DNA from: Blastocatellia bacterium
Lineage (GTDB): Bacteria; Acidobacteriota; Blastocatellia; Chloracidobacteriales; Chloracidobacteriaceae
Direction: 5' to 3'
DNA: 64,000 bases
NCBI GenBank assembly: GCA_019695185.1
Contig: JAIBAN010000007.1
Coordinates: 1-64,000 of the forward strand
How positions within the stretch are numbered: position 1 is the first letter of the stretch; every line of letters starts with the position of its first letter. Made by a program: the position numbers and the translations under genes. The notes under the pieces are model-generated. The model saw nothing but the letters and a program-made list of their open reading frames with translations. It ran no database searches and had not been told where the DNA came from. This document shows positions 8,192 through 61,513 of this stretch, piece by piece.

Positions 8192-8202
8192 AATGAAAAT
8201 CA

Positions 8203-8320
8203 AGTCTTGGGAGTCTTGGAAGTCTTGAGGGTCTTGGGGGTCAAACCCTGACAGGGTGACAAGGCGACAAATTTCCTTGACTCCCAGGACTCCCCAGACT
8301 CCCCAGACTCCCCAGACTTC
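8203..8320. repeat. 9-nt repeat element (AGTCTTGGG arms) with TGACAGGG core
   Basis: The left arm has four degenerate AGTCTTGGG units and the right arm has GACTCCCCA units in inverted orientation. They flank a core containing CTGACAGGGTGACAAGG and AATTTCC. The right arm ends exactly at the stop codon of the threonylcarbamoyl-AMP synthase gene, and the left arm lies just upstream of the ankyrin-kinase start. A closely similar core lies at 56.5 kb. Confidence 0.85.
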
Positions 8321-10838: not shown

Positions 10839-11804
10839 ATGAGAGCATTACAATTTCTTCCTCCCGCACTCACTCTGGTGGACGTGTCTCCGCCTGATAT
10901 TCCGCATGAAGCGCTTATCCGCGTTCACCGCGCTGGAATCTGCGCTACGGATATTGCCATTACCCACGGCTACGCGGGGTATTCCGGGACGCTGGGCCAC
11001 GAATTCGTGGGCACGGTCGAGCGTTGTCCCGATGCCAATTGGATTGGCAAACGTGTGGTTGGCGAAATCAATATCGGCTGCGGGGCATGTCGCCGGTGTG
11101 ACCAGGGTGACCCGCGCCATTGTCCGTTTCGGCAGGTCCTGGGCATCAGGGAACGCAATGGGGCCATGGCTGAATTCGTGTCACTTCCCATCAGAAATCT
11201 GCATCTGGTCCCGGATGGGATAACTGACCGGCAGGCAGTCTTTCTGGAGCCGCTGGCGGCAGCCTGTCATGTCCTTGACCACCACCTGCTCTCACCTGAA
11301 ATGCGGATTTTTATTTTGGGTGACGGGAAATTGGCCCAACTGATTGGACGCGCGTTGCAAGCCCAAGGGTTTCAACCAACTTTAGTGGGGAGGCACCCGG
11401 CCAAACTGGCTTTGGCAAAAGCCGCCGGGATCCGGACCAGCTTGCTGACGGAAGTGGAAACCGACCTTGCGCTCCGGCGCTCGGTTGATGCTGTCATTGA
11501 GGCAACGGGACGCAACGCCGGCATTTCCCTGGCCCTTGATTTGGTTTCCCCCTGCGGAATCGTAATTCTCAAATCCACCTTTCACGAAGCCTGGAACCTT
11601 GTGCCCCAGAAAATCGTGGTCCCCGAAGTTACGCTGGTCGGTTCCCGTTGCGGAAAAATGGAAGCTGCGCTGGATTTGTTTTCCACCGGTCGAATTGAAG
11701 TTGATTCTCTTGTCAGTGCTGAATTTTCTTTCACTGACGCCCTTTTGGCCTTTGCCGCAGCCCAGGACTCACAGGCACTCAAGGTTCAGCTTGTCATGAA
11801 CTAA
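10839..11804 (+). CDS. Zinc-type medium-chain alcohol dehydrogenase-like oxidoreductase
   Basis: A 321-residue MDR-family protein. The GroES-like catalytic domain carries C35 (GICATD) and the GHE motif at 53-55 for the catalytic zinc. Four cysteines (C81, C84, C87, C95) are in the classic spacing for the structural zinc. The second half is a Rossmann domain starting near MRIFILGDGKLAQL, with G-D-G-x-L-A replacing the usual GxGxxG. The family oxidises secondary alcohols or polyols (threonine, sorbitol and similar) with NAD(P); the substrate is not predictable. It is slightly shorter than the usual 340-360 residues. It stands alone, and its 3' end faces nrdD across a heptamer element. Confidence 0.87.
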   Translation: MRALQFLPPALTLVDVSPPDIPHEALIRVHRAGICATDIAITHGYAGYSGTLGHEFVGTVERCPDANWIGKRVVGEINIGCGACRRCDQGDPRHCPFRQVLGIRERNGAMAEFVSLPIRNLHLVPDGITDRQAVFLEPLAAACHVLDHHLLSPEMRIFILGDGKLAQLIGRALQAQGFQPTLVGRHPAKLALAKAAGIRTSLLTEVETDLALRRSVDAVIEATGRNAGISLALDLVSPCGIVILKSTFHEAWNLVPQKIVVPEVTLVGSRCGKMEAALDLFSTGRIEVDSLVSAEFSFTDALLAFAAAQDSQALKVQLVMN

Positions 11805-11813
11805 CCCAAAAGA

Positions 11814-11950
11814 AGGACTGAGGACTGAGGACTGAGGACTGAGTTTTTCAAAGGCCATAGCGGAAGCAAACTTGCCAAACCTGGCTTGTTCCTGCTCGAC
11901 CCTCAGTCCTCAGTCCTCAGTCCTCAGTCCTGGATTGTGTCCTCAGTCTG
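11814..11950. repeat. TCAGTCC heptamer element, copy A of a conserved-core pair
   Basis: The left arm is four GGACTGA units, followed by a 57-nt core (11844-11900, from TTTTTCAAAG to CCTGCTCGAC). The right arm is TCAGTCC units with a CTGGATTGTGTCCTCAG submotif, ending at the nrdD stop codon. The core matches the reverse complement of the core at 35986-36041 with about nine mismatches in 57 positions, counted by eye. It sits between two converging genes. Confidence 0.88.
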
Positions 11951-11952
11951 GC

Positions 11953-14091
11953 CTAGTCTGTGAGACTTTCCCGATTGCGGGCGGCAAGTTCGGTGAGCAT
12001 GCTGCGTGACCACCCGGAAGTCCGGCTGTAGCGGTCGGCAGCCTGAGCGATACCATCCACCTGAGTTGAACCACAGGCTTCACACGACTGACTCAATCCG
12101 TGGGTAACAGCCTTGCAGCTCAAGCAAATGGTGAATTCCGGCGAGAACAATAACCCAATGGTTTGGGATTGGTAAAAAGCACGGGAAATAAAAACTGAGA
12201 CACTGCCAGCCGAGGCTGGTTCTTTCCCCATGCGGATGTCGCTCCCGGCATTGAACAGGTGTTGCCCTTGCAGTTCGCCCTCGACCCGGACCCGCTCCAA
12301 CGCGGAAACCCTGGCGGCAGAACTGAGTTTGATACCGTTGGTGTAATAGACTTCCCCGGTTTGTCGGTTTCCCTGTAAAACTCCAGCGGATTCTTCCGAA
12401 AAGAACTGCAAATCGGTTTTGGCAAGGCGAAAGGGCGGCCCCTCGGCGGCTGATTCGGCCAGTACAAAGCGGGTTTTGTGCCGGGAAGTCAACCGGGCGG
12501 CTTCTCCTGCCAGGTGATTGATGACTTTGCTGCCAAAATCCCGTGCTTCGGCAGATTCATGCAATTGATGTCCGGTCACGGCTGCCACCAGTTCATTGAG
12601 CCCGATTGGACAAATCCAGTGAATGGTGCGGCTTAACCGAAGAAACGGACTTCCGTGCCGCCGCATGGCGAGCAGTGCCAACGGACCTTGTTCCCCCAGG
12701 GCCATCAGTTTTTCGATAAAAATCCGTTTTTCCAGATGCGCCTGGGCAGCGACATCCATCAACCGGGTCAGTTCCTCAAAAATGGCCAAGTGGTTGGTTG
12801 CTCCGGCGCGATAGGCAGCACGGGGTAAATTCAGCGACACCGCCTGGAAAACCGCCGTACACCATTCCGTGCTTTCCGCCTTGGCCAGCGACCCTTCCAA
12901 CGGCAGGCCATAGCGCCGGTAAAAACTGGTGGATTCATCCCGGTCAAAAACAAAATGGACCCCGCCCCGCCCGGTGGCCACTTGACTCACCAGGTCCAAC
13001 AACCCTTTGTAGCCCGGACTTTCCGAAAAATGATGCGTGATATGCAGAACCGGGCGGGCTCCGGTAAAGGGCACCTGCTGGCCGTCACCTTCCAAATAGG
13101 CTTCAAAAATCGCCCGCAACAGCGTGCGGGCCGGTTCGGTATAGTCCCGGTATGGTTTGCCGGTTGGCTCACCGCCCGGTCCGATGGCAATCCGGTCTTT
13201 GAGATACGCTGGTACATCCCAGTCCAAATGGAGTGTGCAGGTCAACATCTGGCCCCCGCGTGCCAGCGAGGGTGAGGAAAGCTCAAAAATGAGACTTTGT
13301 GCCAGTTGTTGAATTTCCTTGGGGTCCAGTGCTTCAACATACGGAGCCAGACAGTAATTGACCGCATCCCACTCAACCGGCCCGCTGGTGTAACTTTGCA
13401 GGGCAGCGGAAAATTTGACGAGGTGGGCCACCAGCACTTCGGGATGTTTCGCCGGACGCCAGTTGGCAAACCGGTGCGGCGTGGTAAACCCGTAGCGTTT
13501 GATGGTGTCCAGGCTTTGGGTAATCGAATAGGGCCGGTCCACTGCGCCCAGGTCCTGAATGTAAATGTCGCCTACCAGATGGGCCTTGGCCACCGGGTCT
13601 GAAAAGACCGACAAAATGGCATATTCGCGCTTGATGGCCTCAGCCAGCAACAGGCTGGTTCCTTCCGGCCCCAGAGCATACACTGAGGTTTCGCGGCGAG
13701 CCTGATGTATCACCCGGTCCACGTCATAGAGTGGTACTCCCAGGCGTGAATGGGCGCGAAATTCCTTTTCCAGTCCATGCTCAATCAATTTGGCATCAAC
13801 CAGACTGCGAATCAGCGAGGAACTCAACCGGGAAACTCCCGATTTGCGGACCATCGCCTGAATCTCAAGGCTGATTTGACCTGCCAGTTCAACGCTCATG
13901 CCCGTCTCGCGGATAAGAGCGTCAATAATCCGCTGACGGTCAAAATGGGTGATATGTTCGTCAGAGCGCCGCACCAGCAAATCAGGCTCCGGTGAAGTGA
14001 CCGCAATGGCCTCGGCGGGTGATTCGGACTCATTGGTTGAGTCGAGAATTTCGTCTTCTCGTTGGAGGTTTGTCACGCCTATAGGTCCCAT
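11953..14091 (-). CDS. nrdD: Anaerobic (class III) ribonucleoside-triphosphate reductase-like protein with ATP cone
   Basis: A 712-residue protein. Residues about 35-130 form an ATP-cone allosteric domain. The body carries NrdD-type signatures, such as the ARGGQ segment followed by a beta strand ending in LHLDWDVP. The C-terminus has a two-CxxC zinc site (CLSC and CEAC) and then RTSGW, where G693 is the expected glycyl-radical residue of the RVxGY motif. The segment after the glycine is divergent and shorter than in the E. coli enzyme. The family reduces ribonucleotides to deoxyribonucleotides without oxygen and needs the radical-SAM activase NrdG. No nrdG lies in this window. Confidence 0.82.
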   Translation of the reverse strand: MGPIGVTNLQREDEILDSTNESESPAEAIAVTSPEPDLLVRRSDEHITHFDRQRIIDALIRETGMSVELAGQISLEIQAMVRKSGVSRLSSSLIRSLVDAKLIEHGLEKEFRAHSRLGVPLYDVDRVIHQARRETSVYALGPEGTSLLLAEAIKREYAILSVFSDPVAKAHLVGDIYIQDLGAVDRPYSITQSLDTIKRYGFTTPHRFANWRPAKHPEVLVAHLVKFSAALQSYTSGPVEWDAVNYCLAPYVEALDPKEIQQLAQSLIFELSSPSLARGGQMLTCTLHLDWDVPAYLKDRIAIGPGGEPTGKPYRDYTEPARTLLRAIFEAYLEGDGQQVPFTGARPVLHITHHFSESPGYKGLLDLVSQVATGRGGVHFVFDRDESTSFYRRYGLPLEGSLAKAESTEWCTAVFQAVSLNLPRAAYRAGATNHLAIFEELTRLMDVAAQAHLEKRIFIEKLMALGEQGPLALLAMRRHGSPFLRLSRTIHWICPIGLNELVAAVTGHQLHESAEARDFGSKVINHLAGEAARLTSRHKTRFVLAESAAEGPPFRLAKTDLQFFSEESAGVLQGNRQTGEVYYTNGIKLSSAARVSALERVRVEGELQGQHLFNAGSDIRMGKEPASAGSVSVFISRAFYQSQTIGLLFSPEFTICLSCKAVTHGLSQSCEACGSTQVDGIAQAADRYSRTSGWSRSMLTELAARNRESLTD

Positions 14092-26124: not shown

Positions 26125-26250
26125 TCTGGGGTTCAGGGTTCAGGGTTCAGGGTTTTTGAATACCAGGACATTTGAAATTTTGGATGGGATTTAATTGTCC
26201 ATCGCCCATTGTCCATTCAAAAGCCCCTGAATCCTGAACCCTGAACTCTA
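26125..26250. repeat. GGGTTCA heptamer element
   Basis: The left arm has three to four GGGTTCA units (26129-26155), and the right arm has degenerate inverted TGAACCC units (26225-26249). The spacer is about 70 nt, AT-rich and contains CCCATTGTCCATT. It lies between the stop of the 148-aa-class gene (26258) and the start of the two-TM gene. Confidence 0.82.
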
Positions 26251-27591: not shown

Positions 27592-27723
27592 CATTGAGAA
27601 TTGAGAATTGAGAATTGAGAATTGAGAATTGCTGACAAGGCGTAATCTCGATACTGATTAAAAACCGGTTCCACAGCAGCTTTGGGGTTTCATTCTCAAT
27701 TCTCAATTCTCAATTCTCAATTC
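27592..27723. repeat. TTGAGAA heptamer element
   Basis: The left arm has five TTGAGAA units (27595-27629) and the right arm has four to five inverted TTCTCAA units (27691-27722). The arms are near-perfect and about 60 nt apart. The right arm runs into the permease stop codon. The second locus of this family is at 60.3 kb. Confidence 0.88.
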
Positions 27724-31357: not shown

Positions 31358-31493
31358 AGGGTTCAGGGTTCAGGGTTCAGGGTTCAGGGTTGTTGTCTGA
31401 AAATGTGAGTTGTGTTGTGAAAAGGCAAGTTTGAAACGCCTGGATTCAACCCCGTACAGACCCTGAACCCTGAACCCTGAACCCTGAACCCTG
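31358..31493. repeat. GGGTTCA heptamer element
   Basis: The left arm has five GGGTTCA units (31358-31392) and the right arm has five TGAACCC units (31460-31493), about 67 nt apart. The right arm ends four bases before the BMC-H stop codon. Confidence 0.88.
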
Positions 31494-35949: not shown

Positions 35950-36098
35950 GACTGAGGACTGAGGACTGAGGACTGAGGACTGAGGGCCGAGCAGGAACAA
36001 GTCAAGTTCGGCAAATTTGCTTCAGGTACGGTCTTTGAAAAACTCAGTCCTCAGTCCTCAGCCCTCAGTCCTGGATTGCGTCCTCAGCCCTCAGTCCT
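35950..36098. repeat. TCAGTCC heptamer element, copy B of the conserved-core pair
   Basis: The left arm is five GGACTGA units. The core at 35986-36041 is the inverted counterpart of the core at 11844-11900. The right arm is TCAGTCC/CAGCCCT units with the CTGGATTGCGTCCTCAG submotif. It ends just before the stop codon of the 634-aa kinase, so the arms keep the same order relative to the gene as at 11.8 kb while the core is flipped. Confidence 0.88.
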
Positions 36099-36104
36099 GT
36101 TTTT

Positions 36105-38009
36105 TCAGTGATGTTCCAGTTTGACCAGATTGACGAAAGGATCCGTTTGGCTGGTAATGAGTGTCAGCTTCTGGTCGTCGTTTTTTTCAACCGTCGGCTT
36201 GGAAGCCCCGTATTTTACCAGCAGGTCGCGCAGAGTCTGAATCTGGTCAGGCTTGCTGACCACTCCTTTTTCTTCGGGATTAGCCACGGTTTTGATGGCT
36301 TCAAGCTGGGGAATGCTCTGTTTGGACCAGATAAACCAAAGCTTTTCAACCCCTTCCTCCTGATCAAAAACAAACGGATTCTGGCCTGGGATTCTGATTT
36401 CCTGTTTGCCACCCACCAGAGCCGACCCGCCATTCACCGAGCTTTTTGGAAAGAGCACCAGATAATCCGGGAGTCCAGTGGAACCCTGCGGGCCTTCGTT
36501 AATGATATAGAGGTATCCATCCTCTCCGTTTTCCAACGAAAGCCAAACCCGGTCGCCGGGTGAAAAAATAACCTCTCCGGGCAGCCGGAAGGGCTTGCTG
36601 TCGGGATATTTGGCTGGGTCTTTTTGCACGGTCATCCAATAACTTAACCGATGTGTGGCAACCGGAGTGACGACCGGCGGTTTGGACGGTGGTTCCGGAG
36701 GCGTGCCTTTCGGCCAAAACAAAAAACCAACCACACCCAGTATCACCACCACCGCAGCCGCTCCGATACCCAGCATCGGTCCTAATGATTTGGAGGGTCG
36801 CGGCAAAACCGTTGCAGGCATTTCCGATTTTGCCGAGTCAACCACCGTCGGGGGCGCTTTCTCCTGGACCGGTCTTTGCTTGGGTCCGACCTTGGTTGGC
36901 GGGGATGCTTCCTCTTCGTTGGTCGCGGGACGGGGGGAATCGGTCAGGCGAATTTCTTCGGGTGAAGTTACCACCACCTGGCCGCTCACCATCGTCTCCA
37001 TGGTCTGAATATTGTCAGGCATTGGTTCCGGCTGCCTGAGCATCACAGGCTGCAAAATGTAGCGGGCAAAGTTATCAGCAAATTCCTCAGCGGTTTTCGG
37101 GCGTTTCTGAGGGTCGTAATGCAGGGCCTGGGCAAGATAAGTCTGAGCCACGTCAGGAATTTCCGGACGGACGGAACGCGGCGGAACCGTAATCCCGGTT
37201 TGGTGTTTTTTCAGGATTTCAATCGCCGCCGAAACCTGATACTCGGAATTTGAGTCAAACGGCCGCCGTCCGGTAATCATTTCATAGACGATGACGCCCA
37301 AGGCAAAAATATCGCTGGCCGCAGAGGTCTGCCCCCGCTCAATCTGTTCCGGAGCCATATAGGACAAGGTTCCGGCCAGCAGGACCGCCGAGCTTTTTTC
37401 GGCTGAACGGGGTTCCTCAATTTTGGCAATTCCGAAATCAATCAATTTGGCCTGCTCATGCCCCCCGCTTAAAGTTTGCAGCATGATGTTTTCAGGCTTC
37501 AGGTCACGGTGAAAGATTCCTTCCTTGTGAACCGCAGTCAGTATGTCGCCCAGTTGTCGCACAATGCGGGCCACCTCAGGAAACTCCATTCCGGTTGGCG
37601 GAATACAGGTCCGCAAGGTTGTCCCTTTGACAAACTCCATCACCAGAAACGGTTTACCGTTTTCCAACTGCCCCCGGTCCAACACCTTGACGACACCCGG
37701 ATGGTCAATCCGGGAAAGAGCCTCGCTTTCATGATGAAATTTGCGGGCCACCCAATCATTTTCACTTGGGTTGGAAAGCAGGACCTTAATCACCACCGGA
37801 CGGTTATGCACTTGTGTGTCATGGGCCAGATACACCACACCGATTCCGCCCCTTCCGAGTTCGGATTCAATCATGTAACGGCCCTGGACAGTTTTCCCAA
37901 CCAGTTTTTCCTCGTTCCCTTTGGCCGAAGGCAAACTGGTCGGAAACTCTGTCGGGACATCGCTGATTTCCGGCTTTGATTGGAAAAGGGGTCTATCGTT
38001 TTGAGCCAC
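36105..38009 (-). CDS. Transmembrane Ser/Thr kinase with DUF4384-like sensor domain
   Basis: 634 residues starting at a GTG preceded by GAGGACA. The kinase domain (about 45-310) has GRGGIGVVY, K75, HRDLKPEN and DFGIAKI followed by GTLSYMAPEQ. A Pro/Lys linker leads to one transmembrane helix (about 400-420). The outer domain (about 455-590) is DUF4384-like: DRVWLSLENGEDGYLYIINE, LVLFPKS and EIRIPGQNPF. The topology is that of PknB-type receptors. A gene for a secreted protein of the same domain type lies directly downstream. Confidence 0.92.
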   Translation of the reverse strand: MAQNDRPLFQSKPEISDVPTEFPTSLPSAKGNEEKLVGKTVQGRYMIESELGRGGIGVVYLAHDTQVHNRPVVIKVLLSNPSENDWVARKFHHESEALSRIDHPGVVKVLDRGQLENGKPFLVMEFVKGTTLRTCIPPTGMEFPEVARIVRQLGDILTAVHKEGIFHRDLKPENIMLQTLSGGHEQAKLIDFGIAKIEEPRSAEKSSAVLLAGTLSYMAPEQIERGQTSAASDIFALGVIVYEMITGRRPFDSNSEYQVSAAIEILKKHQTGITVPPRSVRPEIPDVAQTYLAQALHYDPQKRPKTAEEFADNFARYILQPVMLRQPEPMPDNIQTMETMVSGQVVVTSPEEIRLTDSPRPATNEEEASPPTKVGPKQRPVQEKAPPTVVDSAKSEMPATVLPRPSKSLGPMLGIGAAAVVVILGVVGFLFWPKGTPPEPPSKPPVVTPVATHRLSYWMTVQKDPAKYPDSKPFRLPGEVIFSPGDRVWLSLENGEDGYLYIINEGPQGSTGLPDYLVLFPKSSVNGGSALVGGKQEIRIPGQNPFVFDQEEGVEKLWFIWSKQSIPQLEAIKTVANPEEKGVVSKPDQIQTLRDLLVKYGASKPTVEKNDDQKLTLITSQTDPFVNLVKLEHH

Positions 38010-39997: not shown

Positions 39998-40264
39998 GGA
40001 CCAACCAACAGGACTGAGGACCAACCAACAGGACTGAGGACCAACCAACAGGACTGAGGACTGAGGACTGAGTTTTTCGAACTCAAGGAATCGGTGCATG
40101 TAATGGAATGCTTTTCCTCAGTCCTCAGTCCTCAGTCCTCAGTCCTGGATTGGTCCTCAGTCCTCAGTCCTCAGTCCTGGATTGGTCCTCAGTCCTCAGT
40201 CCTCAGTCCTGGATTGGTCCTCAGTCCTCAGTCCTCAGTCCTGGATTGCCCCTCAGTCCTGGAT
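39991..40264. repeat. Largest TCAGTCC heptamer region, with 20-bp higher-order units
   Basis: Three perfect 20-bp units (GGACTGAGGACCAACCAACA) lead into GGACTGA heptamers. A core of about 45 nt follows. The right half then repeats a block of TCAGTCC triplets plus CTGGATTGG three to four times. It reaches from inside the epimerase stop codon to the stop of the next minus-strand gene. Two reading frames across it translate only the repeat. Confidence 0.9.
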
Positions 40265-51090: not shown

Positions 51091-52002
51091 TTACTGTACT
51101 TCAAACCGAAACAACTGTTTTCCAATCAGAATGACATCACCGGGTTTCAGTTTGACTTCACCATCAATCTTTTTGAAGGTTCCATTACGGGAATTTTCGT
51201 CGTGAAGCACAAACTGGTCGCCTTTGCGGACAATGCGGGCATGGCGACCTGACATGTACCCGTCATGCGGGAACCGAATGTCGCCGGCATTGCGCCCCAC
51301 AATTACCTCATCGGTTTCAAGTTTATACACTTCCCCTTCCCCGCCACCCTCCTGAATCAGGCGCAGCCGTGCCACCGGCCCGCGCGGCTGGGACGACATG
51401 ACCACCGTGGATTCGGCAGGGGCTGGCAAGGCCGCTCCGCAGGCAGCACAAAAACTGCTGCCACCGGGGTTTTGTTTTCCGCAATTGGTACAAGAGACAG
51501 CACCCATGGCTGGGGTAGCACCCTGCGGGGTTGAAAATCCTTGAGGTTGTGGAACCGGCTGGGCAATCACCGTCGGCGGTGCCACCATCGGCTGGGCAAT
51601 CACCGTCGGCGGTGCCACCATCGGCTGGGCAATCACCGTCGGCGGTGCCACCATCGGCTGGGCAATCACCGTCGGCGGTGCCATCGGTTGGGCCATGGGC
51701 GGAGGCATCGGCGGAGCCATGGGGGGACTGGGCGGCGGTGCCGGTTTGGGAGGTGCCGCAGGAGGAGCAGGCGCACGATGCAACGGAGACCCACATTGTT
51801 GGCAAAACGCCCAAGTGGAATCATTGACCGCTCCACAAATGGAACATAAAACTTCTCCCGGACCTACATTACCGCCTCCCGGCGGCGCATTGTCGAAAGC
51901 TGGTGTCATAAGCGTTGCAGGAGCTTCAAGCGGTGTGGCGCACATCCGACACATGGTAGCTGTTGGCTTGTTTTCAGCCCCACAGCGAGGACAGGTAATC
52001 AT
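51091..52002 (-). CDS. Zinc-ribbon FHA-domain protein with 11-residue repeats
   Basis: 303 residues from the ATG at 52002 (GAGGAG nine bases upstream); the frame opens with a GTG six bases earlier. Three CxxC-type zinc ribbons are present: near the start (CPRCG...CRMC), about residue 55-75 (CSICG...CQQCG) and about 175-195 (CTNCG...CAACG). A Pro-rich linker carries four copies of PMVAPPTVIAQ. The C-terminal FHA domain (about 215-303) has MSGRHARIV and NSRNGTF. It should bind phosphothreonine, probably from the neighbouring kinase/phosphatase network. Confidence 0.9.
   Translation of the reverse strand: MITCPRCGAENKPTATMCRMCATPLEAPATLMTPAFDNAPPGGGNVGPGEVLCSICGAVNDSTWAFCQQCGSPLHRAPAPPAAPPKPAPPPSPPMAPPMPPPMAQPMAPPTVIAQPMVAPPTVIAQPMVAPPTVIAQPMVAPPTVIAQPVPQPQGFSTPQGATPAMGAVSCTNCGKQNPGGSSFCAACGAALPAPAESTVVMSSQPRGPVARLRLIQEGGGEGEVYKLETDEVIVGRNAGDIRFPHDGYMSGRHARIVRKGDQFVLHDENSRNGTFKKIDGEVKLKPGDVILIGKQLFRFEVQ
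51556..51687 (-). repeat. Four 33-bp tandem repeats in FHA-protein gene
   Basis: Four near-identical 33-bp units encode PMVAPPTVIAQ in tandem. The length keeps the frame, so copy-number change alters linker length without breaking the gene. Confidence 0.92.
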
Positions 52003-58138: not shown

Positions 58139-58257
58139 CAGGACTGAGGACTGAGGACTGAGGACTGAGTTCACAACCAAATTTGACACGAGCCAGCATG
58201 CCCCCGGCGGCTTACCACCGGGAACCAAAATTGGCTCAGTCCTCAGTCCTCAGTCCT
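58139..58257. repeat. TCAGTCC heptamer element inside the fatty-acid cluster
   Basis: The left arm is four GGACTGA units, the core is 66 nt with its own CCCGGCGGC...CCGGG character, and the right arm is four TCAGTCC units. The right arm includes the fabD codons for QD and its TGA stop. It interrupts the fabD-acpP gap of an otherwise compact cluster. Confidence 0.88.
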
Positions 58258-61413: not shown

Positions 61414-61513
61414 AGGACTGAGGACTGAGGACTGAGGACGGGTCAAGAAAAATAATTCCACTTGGATAAGGACATGAAGAAGCAAGGCATCTCAGTCCTC
61501 AGTCCTCAGTCCT
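61414..61513. repeat. TCAGTCC heptamer element
   Basis: The left arm is GGACTGA units from 61415 just upstream of fabH, and the right arm is TCAGTCC units ending two bases before the plsX stop. The core of about 50 nt is AT-rich and unlike the other cores. Confidence 0.86.

Follow-up and report, generated by a model that had tools for sequence, protein, structure and literature searches.

Our analysis showed that the two copies of a 57-nt sequence found in opposite orientations in the window (the whole 64,000-nt stretch of DNA that was analysed) form the loops of two hairpins that belong to a very large class, its members built from heptamers and lying directly after genes. It is probable that in this class the arms and their anchoring at stop codons persist, and that the loop is copied between neighbouring elements or inverted in place. 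Element 1 lies between convergent stops, with the plus-strand stop of an alcohol dehydrogenase gene ending at 11804, 9 nt upstream, and a minus-strand stop at 11953; the minus-strand stop next to element 2 is at 36105, and the earlier note was thus right to place such a stop beside each copy. The arms of both elements are perfect heptamer runs save for one substitution. The features concerned, together with the other elements of the window, are the following:

10839 to 11804, plus strand: open reading frame, zinc-dependent alcohol dehydrogenase family gene (Pfam ADH_N, ADH_zinc_N)
11814 to 11843: left arm of element 1, (AGGACTG)4.3, perfect
11844 to 11900, plus strand: core (loop) of element 1, 57 nt
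11901 to 11931: right arm of element 1, (CCTCAGT)4.4, perfect
11932 to 11948, plus strand: right outer extension of element 1, GGATTG-T-GTCCTCAGTC, with the exact submotif CTGGATTGNGTCCTCAG at 11930-11946
11953 to 14091, minus strand: NrdD-like anaerobic ribonucleotide reductase (Pfam NRDD, E 5e-74), its stop abutting element 1
27593 to 27723: element of the AATTCTC heptamer family, architecture as in the TCAGTCC elements
31358 to 31493: element of the AACCCTG heptamer family, architecture as in the TCAGTCC elements
35950 to 35985: left arm of element 2, (GACTGAG)5.1, perfect
35986 to 36042, minus strand: core of element 2, 84% identical to the core of element 1, inverted
36043 to 36072: right arm of element 2, (CTCAGTC)4.3, one substitution
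36073 to 36098, plus strand: right outer extension of element 2, GGATTG-C-GTCCTCAG, with the exact submotif at 36071-36087
36105 to 38009, minus strand: gene of a Ser/Thr protein kinase whose C-terminal part resembles DUF4384; its stop abuts element 2
40050 to 40260: TCAGTCC element with a core of 42 nt and a right arm expanded into 32-nt units
58140 to 58257: TCAGTCC element with a 65-nt core, unrelated
61414 to 61513: TCAGTCC element with a 51-nt core, unrelated

The NrdD-like protein scores below the TIGR02487 equivalog cut-off. The third TCAGTCC element has one arm expanded at a higher order (40121-40260), into 4.4 near-perfect 32-nt units that combine TCAGTCC repeats with TGGATTG, and the window also holds a 33-nt repeat in 3.9 perfect copies (51556-51683).

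TCAGTCC 21-mers number 598 + 571 in the genome, with none or a few in each of 57 relatives, and 396 perfect period-7 runs were counted in 1.58 Mb, whereas no other period exceeded 53. Our class statistics cover about a quarter of the 8.33 Mb genome and use genes called by a simple codon-usage caller. Three main families (TCAGTCC, AATTCTC and AACCCTG) and seven minor ones make up 10 heptamer families that form inverted pairs, and all follow one layout: G-rich tandem heptamers after the stop, then a loop of about 30-130 nt (median 65 nt) and, ahead of the next gene, the array in reverse complement. The 5' arm holds more G than C in 133 of the 134 pairs across the 10 families, and the arrays of the lone exception, 226 nt apart, may be halves of two elements. 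A nonamer version exists as well, with 11 inverted pairs in 2.11 Mb, every one of them G-rich first; a nonamer hairpin of AGTCTTGGG-type arrays, a short loop and GACTCCCCA-type arrays lies at 8202-8318 of the window. The median distance to the stop codon is 3-9 nt in the three main families, and elements are over-represented between convergent genes; paired TCAGTCC elements between two called genes occupy 29 co-directional, 14 convergent and no divergent sites. Even unpaired arrays keep the polarity in co-directional cases, the G-rich ones following a stop (41/45) and the C-rich ones lying nearer the next start (36/47). The earlier view that the sequence is not a random tandem repeat therefore holds: these are inverted-arm hairpins abutting stops, genome-wide. 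A supply of three-frame stops by the TGA within the heptamer was also considered, but the CAGGGTT, CTGGGGT and CCAGGGT arms lack TGA, and such a supply is thus not the common rule.

An ungapped alignment of the core of element 1 (11844-11900) with the reverse-complemented stretch 35986-36042 has nine mismatches in 57 positions, 84% identity (blastn E = 2e-12 in a search space of 1.58 Mb). This reproduces the identity counted by eye in the earlier note, whose core limits also stood except for the last, 36041, which is one base short. Its further proposal of a dispersed element fits the arms, which are dispersed, but not the core: a search of all 8.33 Mb recovered just the two copies and no others, and the 57 related genomes gave no credible match, only hits of fewer than 30 bases at E > 0.002. 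The absence of more copies in the genome is among the results that the earlier note had named as refuting its interpretation. We therefore rejected the core as a dispersed family. We likewise rejected the duplication of a larger region, as identity stops at the arms except for about 9 nt on the left and about 17 nt on the right. That the core belongs to a small structured RNA family, as also suggested at the outset, had in its favour a conserved 57-nt sequence flanked by long complementary arms. This explanation is now very improbable: besides the two copies and the lack of credible ones in relatives, the cores fold like their shuffles (z-scores of -0.6 and +0.4) and differently from each other, homologous as they are, and have no Rfam match.

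Sharing of cores was seen elsewhere in the TCAGTCC family, with a local bias. Among 53 elements, cores are almost all unrelated, with 5 homologous pairs in 1,378 comparisons, yet four of these five lie on the same contig, although same-contig comparisons number only 72 (p about 3e-5). These four pairs are 1.3, 1.5, 24 and 87 kb apart and three are inverted; the other inverted pairs (C2, C11) have no flanks common to both members. The gene at L039 5635-6798, which lies between two inverted-core elements, encodes a caspase-like domain (Peptidase_C14) and a Tudor-knot/Agenet-like C-terminus. A weaker pair, at 1585-1700 and 3394-3480 of L156, has a 31-nt core in common, in direct orientation and 1.8 kb apart, and its elements flank one subtilase-like gene. 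Each of the five local core-sharing pairs (C31, C2, C11 x2, L156) apparently combines one convergent and one co-directional site, which may be coincidence.

These observations suggest how the 57-nt core came to be shared. One of two nearby hairpins apparently received its loop from the other, and the 57-nt core would be one such shared loop. Arm length would change by slippage, and template switching between the two arms would keep them perfect; polymerase strand switching or gene conversion might then copy a loop into a nearby element in either orientation, or the loop might be inverted in place through the symmetric arms. Because all elements have the same arms, which are symmetric under reverse complementation, copying through them would be blind to orientation. 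What is maintained would be the 3'-end hairpin of transcripts, the loop sequence being largely free. For the transfer of cores, the evidence consists of the five homologous pairs. Homogenisation of arms and inversion of loops by template switching have been described (PMC8604942, PMC8794818).

For the pair in the window, the outer flanks bear on the choice between copying and flipping. The submotif CTGGATTG-N-GTCCTCAG, said to be common to both loci, is indeed exact and on the plus strand at each, and these are two of its three exact places in the 8.33 Mb genome. The related claim that the arms keep their order while the core is inverted holds for the outer flanks, which are direct; the arms themselves are symmetric under reverse complementation, so that only the outer flanks can give them a direction. 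On the left, AACCCAAAA precedes the arm at both loci, outside the arms and in direct orientation. With heptamers masked, direct two-sided flank similarity as high as this occurs in 19 of 2,756 element-to-element comparisons, and the combination of direct flanks and inverted core, nominally significant and not overwhelming, has for this reason only moderate support; the unmasked comparison (142/2,756) mainly reflected heptamer units scattered in the flanks, and we used the masked version. That the outer flanks are similar and direct favours, for this pair, either inversion in place or copying of the whole element. The flip of the core across the inverted arms that the earlier note proposed is possible, if rather unlikely: after duplication of the whole element, recombination or template switching between the two arms of one copy would have turned its core round. 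Such a history would leave AACCCAAAA and TGGATTG-N-GTCCTCAG direct in both copies, as observed, and the inversion of loops by template switching is documented (PMC8794818). Against it stand the inverted pairs of C2 and C11, whose flanks are not shared and which copying between neighbours explains as well or better, and the single loop orientation that is kept in both members of an orthologous pair of Phycisphaerales elements.

A mobile miniature element, MITE- or REPIN-like, with the heptamer arrays as symmetric ends and the core as cargo in either orientation, was also considered. In AACCCTG hairpins, at 26134-26223 of the window and at many other loci, one directional core often recurs, CTTTTGAATTGAGAATT ... 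TATTCGAAAACCC, in which AATTGAG heptamers are nested; it occurs in both orientations relative to genes and resembles a dispersed element more closely than do the TCAGTCC cores. This family, and the presence of the GGACTGA hairpin in several phyla, would suit mobility. The unrelatedness of nearly all TCAGTCC cores and the variable length and phase of the arms would not, and neither anchoring at stops nor different heptamers at orthologous stops would be expected of one element; we regard this explanation as improbable.

As RNA, whole elements fold at about -70 to -78 kcal/mol (z about -9) and the cores alone at z about 0, no better than shuffles. Nor do the TCAGTCC cores have a motif in common, since no 8-mer exceeds shuffles and only T/A-rich 6-mers (TTTTCA) and T-rich core edges were seen. 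In 80 co-directional elements no U-tract follows the 3' arm on the sense strand, the T fraction staying within 0.19-0.33 over all 12 positions. The data therefore do not support a canonical U-tract terminator; an excess of T was found instead on the antisense, stop-proximal side, and we ascribe part of it to the stop codon. The function that we tentatively predict is that of an RNA hairpin at the 3' end, acting in 3'-end formation without a U-tract or in protection of the mRNA 3' end.

Comparison with relatives suggests that across genera the position of these elements persists and the heptamer and loop are replaced. The NrdD orthologue of a sister genus (G003; 70% identity) has at its stop CAGTCGT/CAGTAGT arrays, after which come a long loop and the inverse ACTACTG array, and the best match of the kinase in the same genome (49% identity) has AGTGGTT ... 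AACCACT arrays at its stop. The stretches around the NrdD matches of G001 and G002 hold no such arrays, that of G002 possibly not being the one after the stop. MAGs of Phycisphaerales, Chloroflexia, Thermomicrobiales (Chloroflexota) and other Acidobacteriota contain the identical GGACTGA hairpin, and at all three of the loci examined among them an ORF ends inside an array. In the orthologous element of two Phycisphaerales MAGs, differences affect 0/56 arm, 4/31 loop and 25/214 flank positions.

This turnover between genera is also what one would see if the hairpins were neutral by-products, formed by heptamer slippage and fold-back replication where coding constraint ends, and heptamers are indeed over-represented among bacterial SSRs, with polymerase slippage as the proposed cause (PMC4692102). 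Such an origin does not readily account for the strict G-rich-first polarity across 10 families, the placement on the stop side, the lack of paired TCAGTCC elements between divergent genes or the conservation of arms in the orthologous pair. We consequently favour a role at the 3' end, itself tentative, over neutral slippage, which we hold to be possible and rather doubtful. Whether these hairpins represent a general and previously unrecognised bacterial 3'-end element is a bolder idea, to which we give a low probability: it would be a stop-borne tandem heptamer (or nonamer) hairpin, G-rich first, whose heptamer and loop can be replaced freely, which template switching between the arms maintains in several phyla and which acts in 3'-end formation independently of a U-tract.

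The closest known system in the open-access literature is the GGGAATC repeat of Xanthomonas campestris and X. axonopodis, in which hundreds of intergenic heptamer arrays include 70 and 75 'convergent' inverted pairs; the number of units varies, the role is unknown and G-quadruplexes have been proposed (PMC4692102). As in that case, our elements are tandem 7-nt units in inverted pairs between genes, with the G-rich strand close 3' of an ORF and the C-rich strand 5' of the next, and divergent contexts are rare. Here, however, a single genome contains several heptamers side by side, and GAGAATT, GAGTTTT and GGACTGA arms, the first and last being the units of the two largest families, show the same geometry without G3 tracts. 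Loop copying is not described in PMC4692102, whereas local sharing of loops is seen here, and this genome adds to the Xanthomonas case the stop-by-stop replacement of heptamers between genera. That about ten heptamer families obey a single geometric rule separates position and polarity from any particular sequence and argues against G-quadruplexes as the common cause. The over-representation of heptamers in bacteria has been noted since 2007, as cited by PMC4692102, without an accepted explanation. The TAACTGA repeats of Beggiatoaceae, Cyanobacteria and Bacteroidetes (PMC4679880) are likewise abundant intergenic heptamers across distant phyla, but they are direct and lie just upstream of start codons, with one indirect case reported, whereas ours are inverted pairs anchored at stops. 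REP and REPIN sequences are also short extragenic hairpins of high copy number; they are, however, conserved palindromes linked to TnpA(REP), in contrast to the variable tandem heptamer arms and unrelated loops found here. Finally, template-switch hairpins (PMC8794818, PMC8604942) resemble ours in the homogenisation of arms and the inversion of loops; the cases described there concern microRNA, rRNA and yeast loci, whereas here the process would act on bacterial intergenic heptamer hairpins, whose shared and inverted loops provide markers for testing hairpin copying and repair in bacteria.
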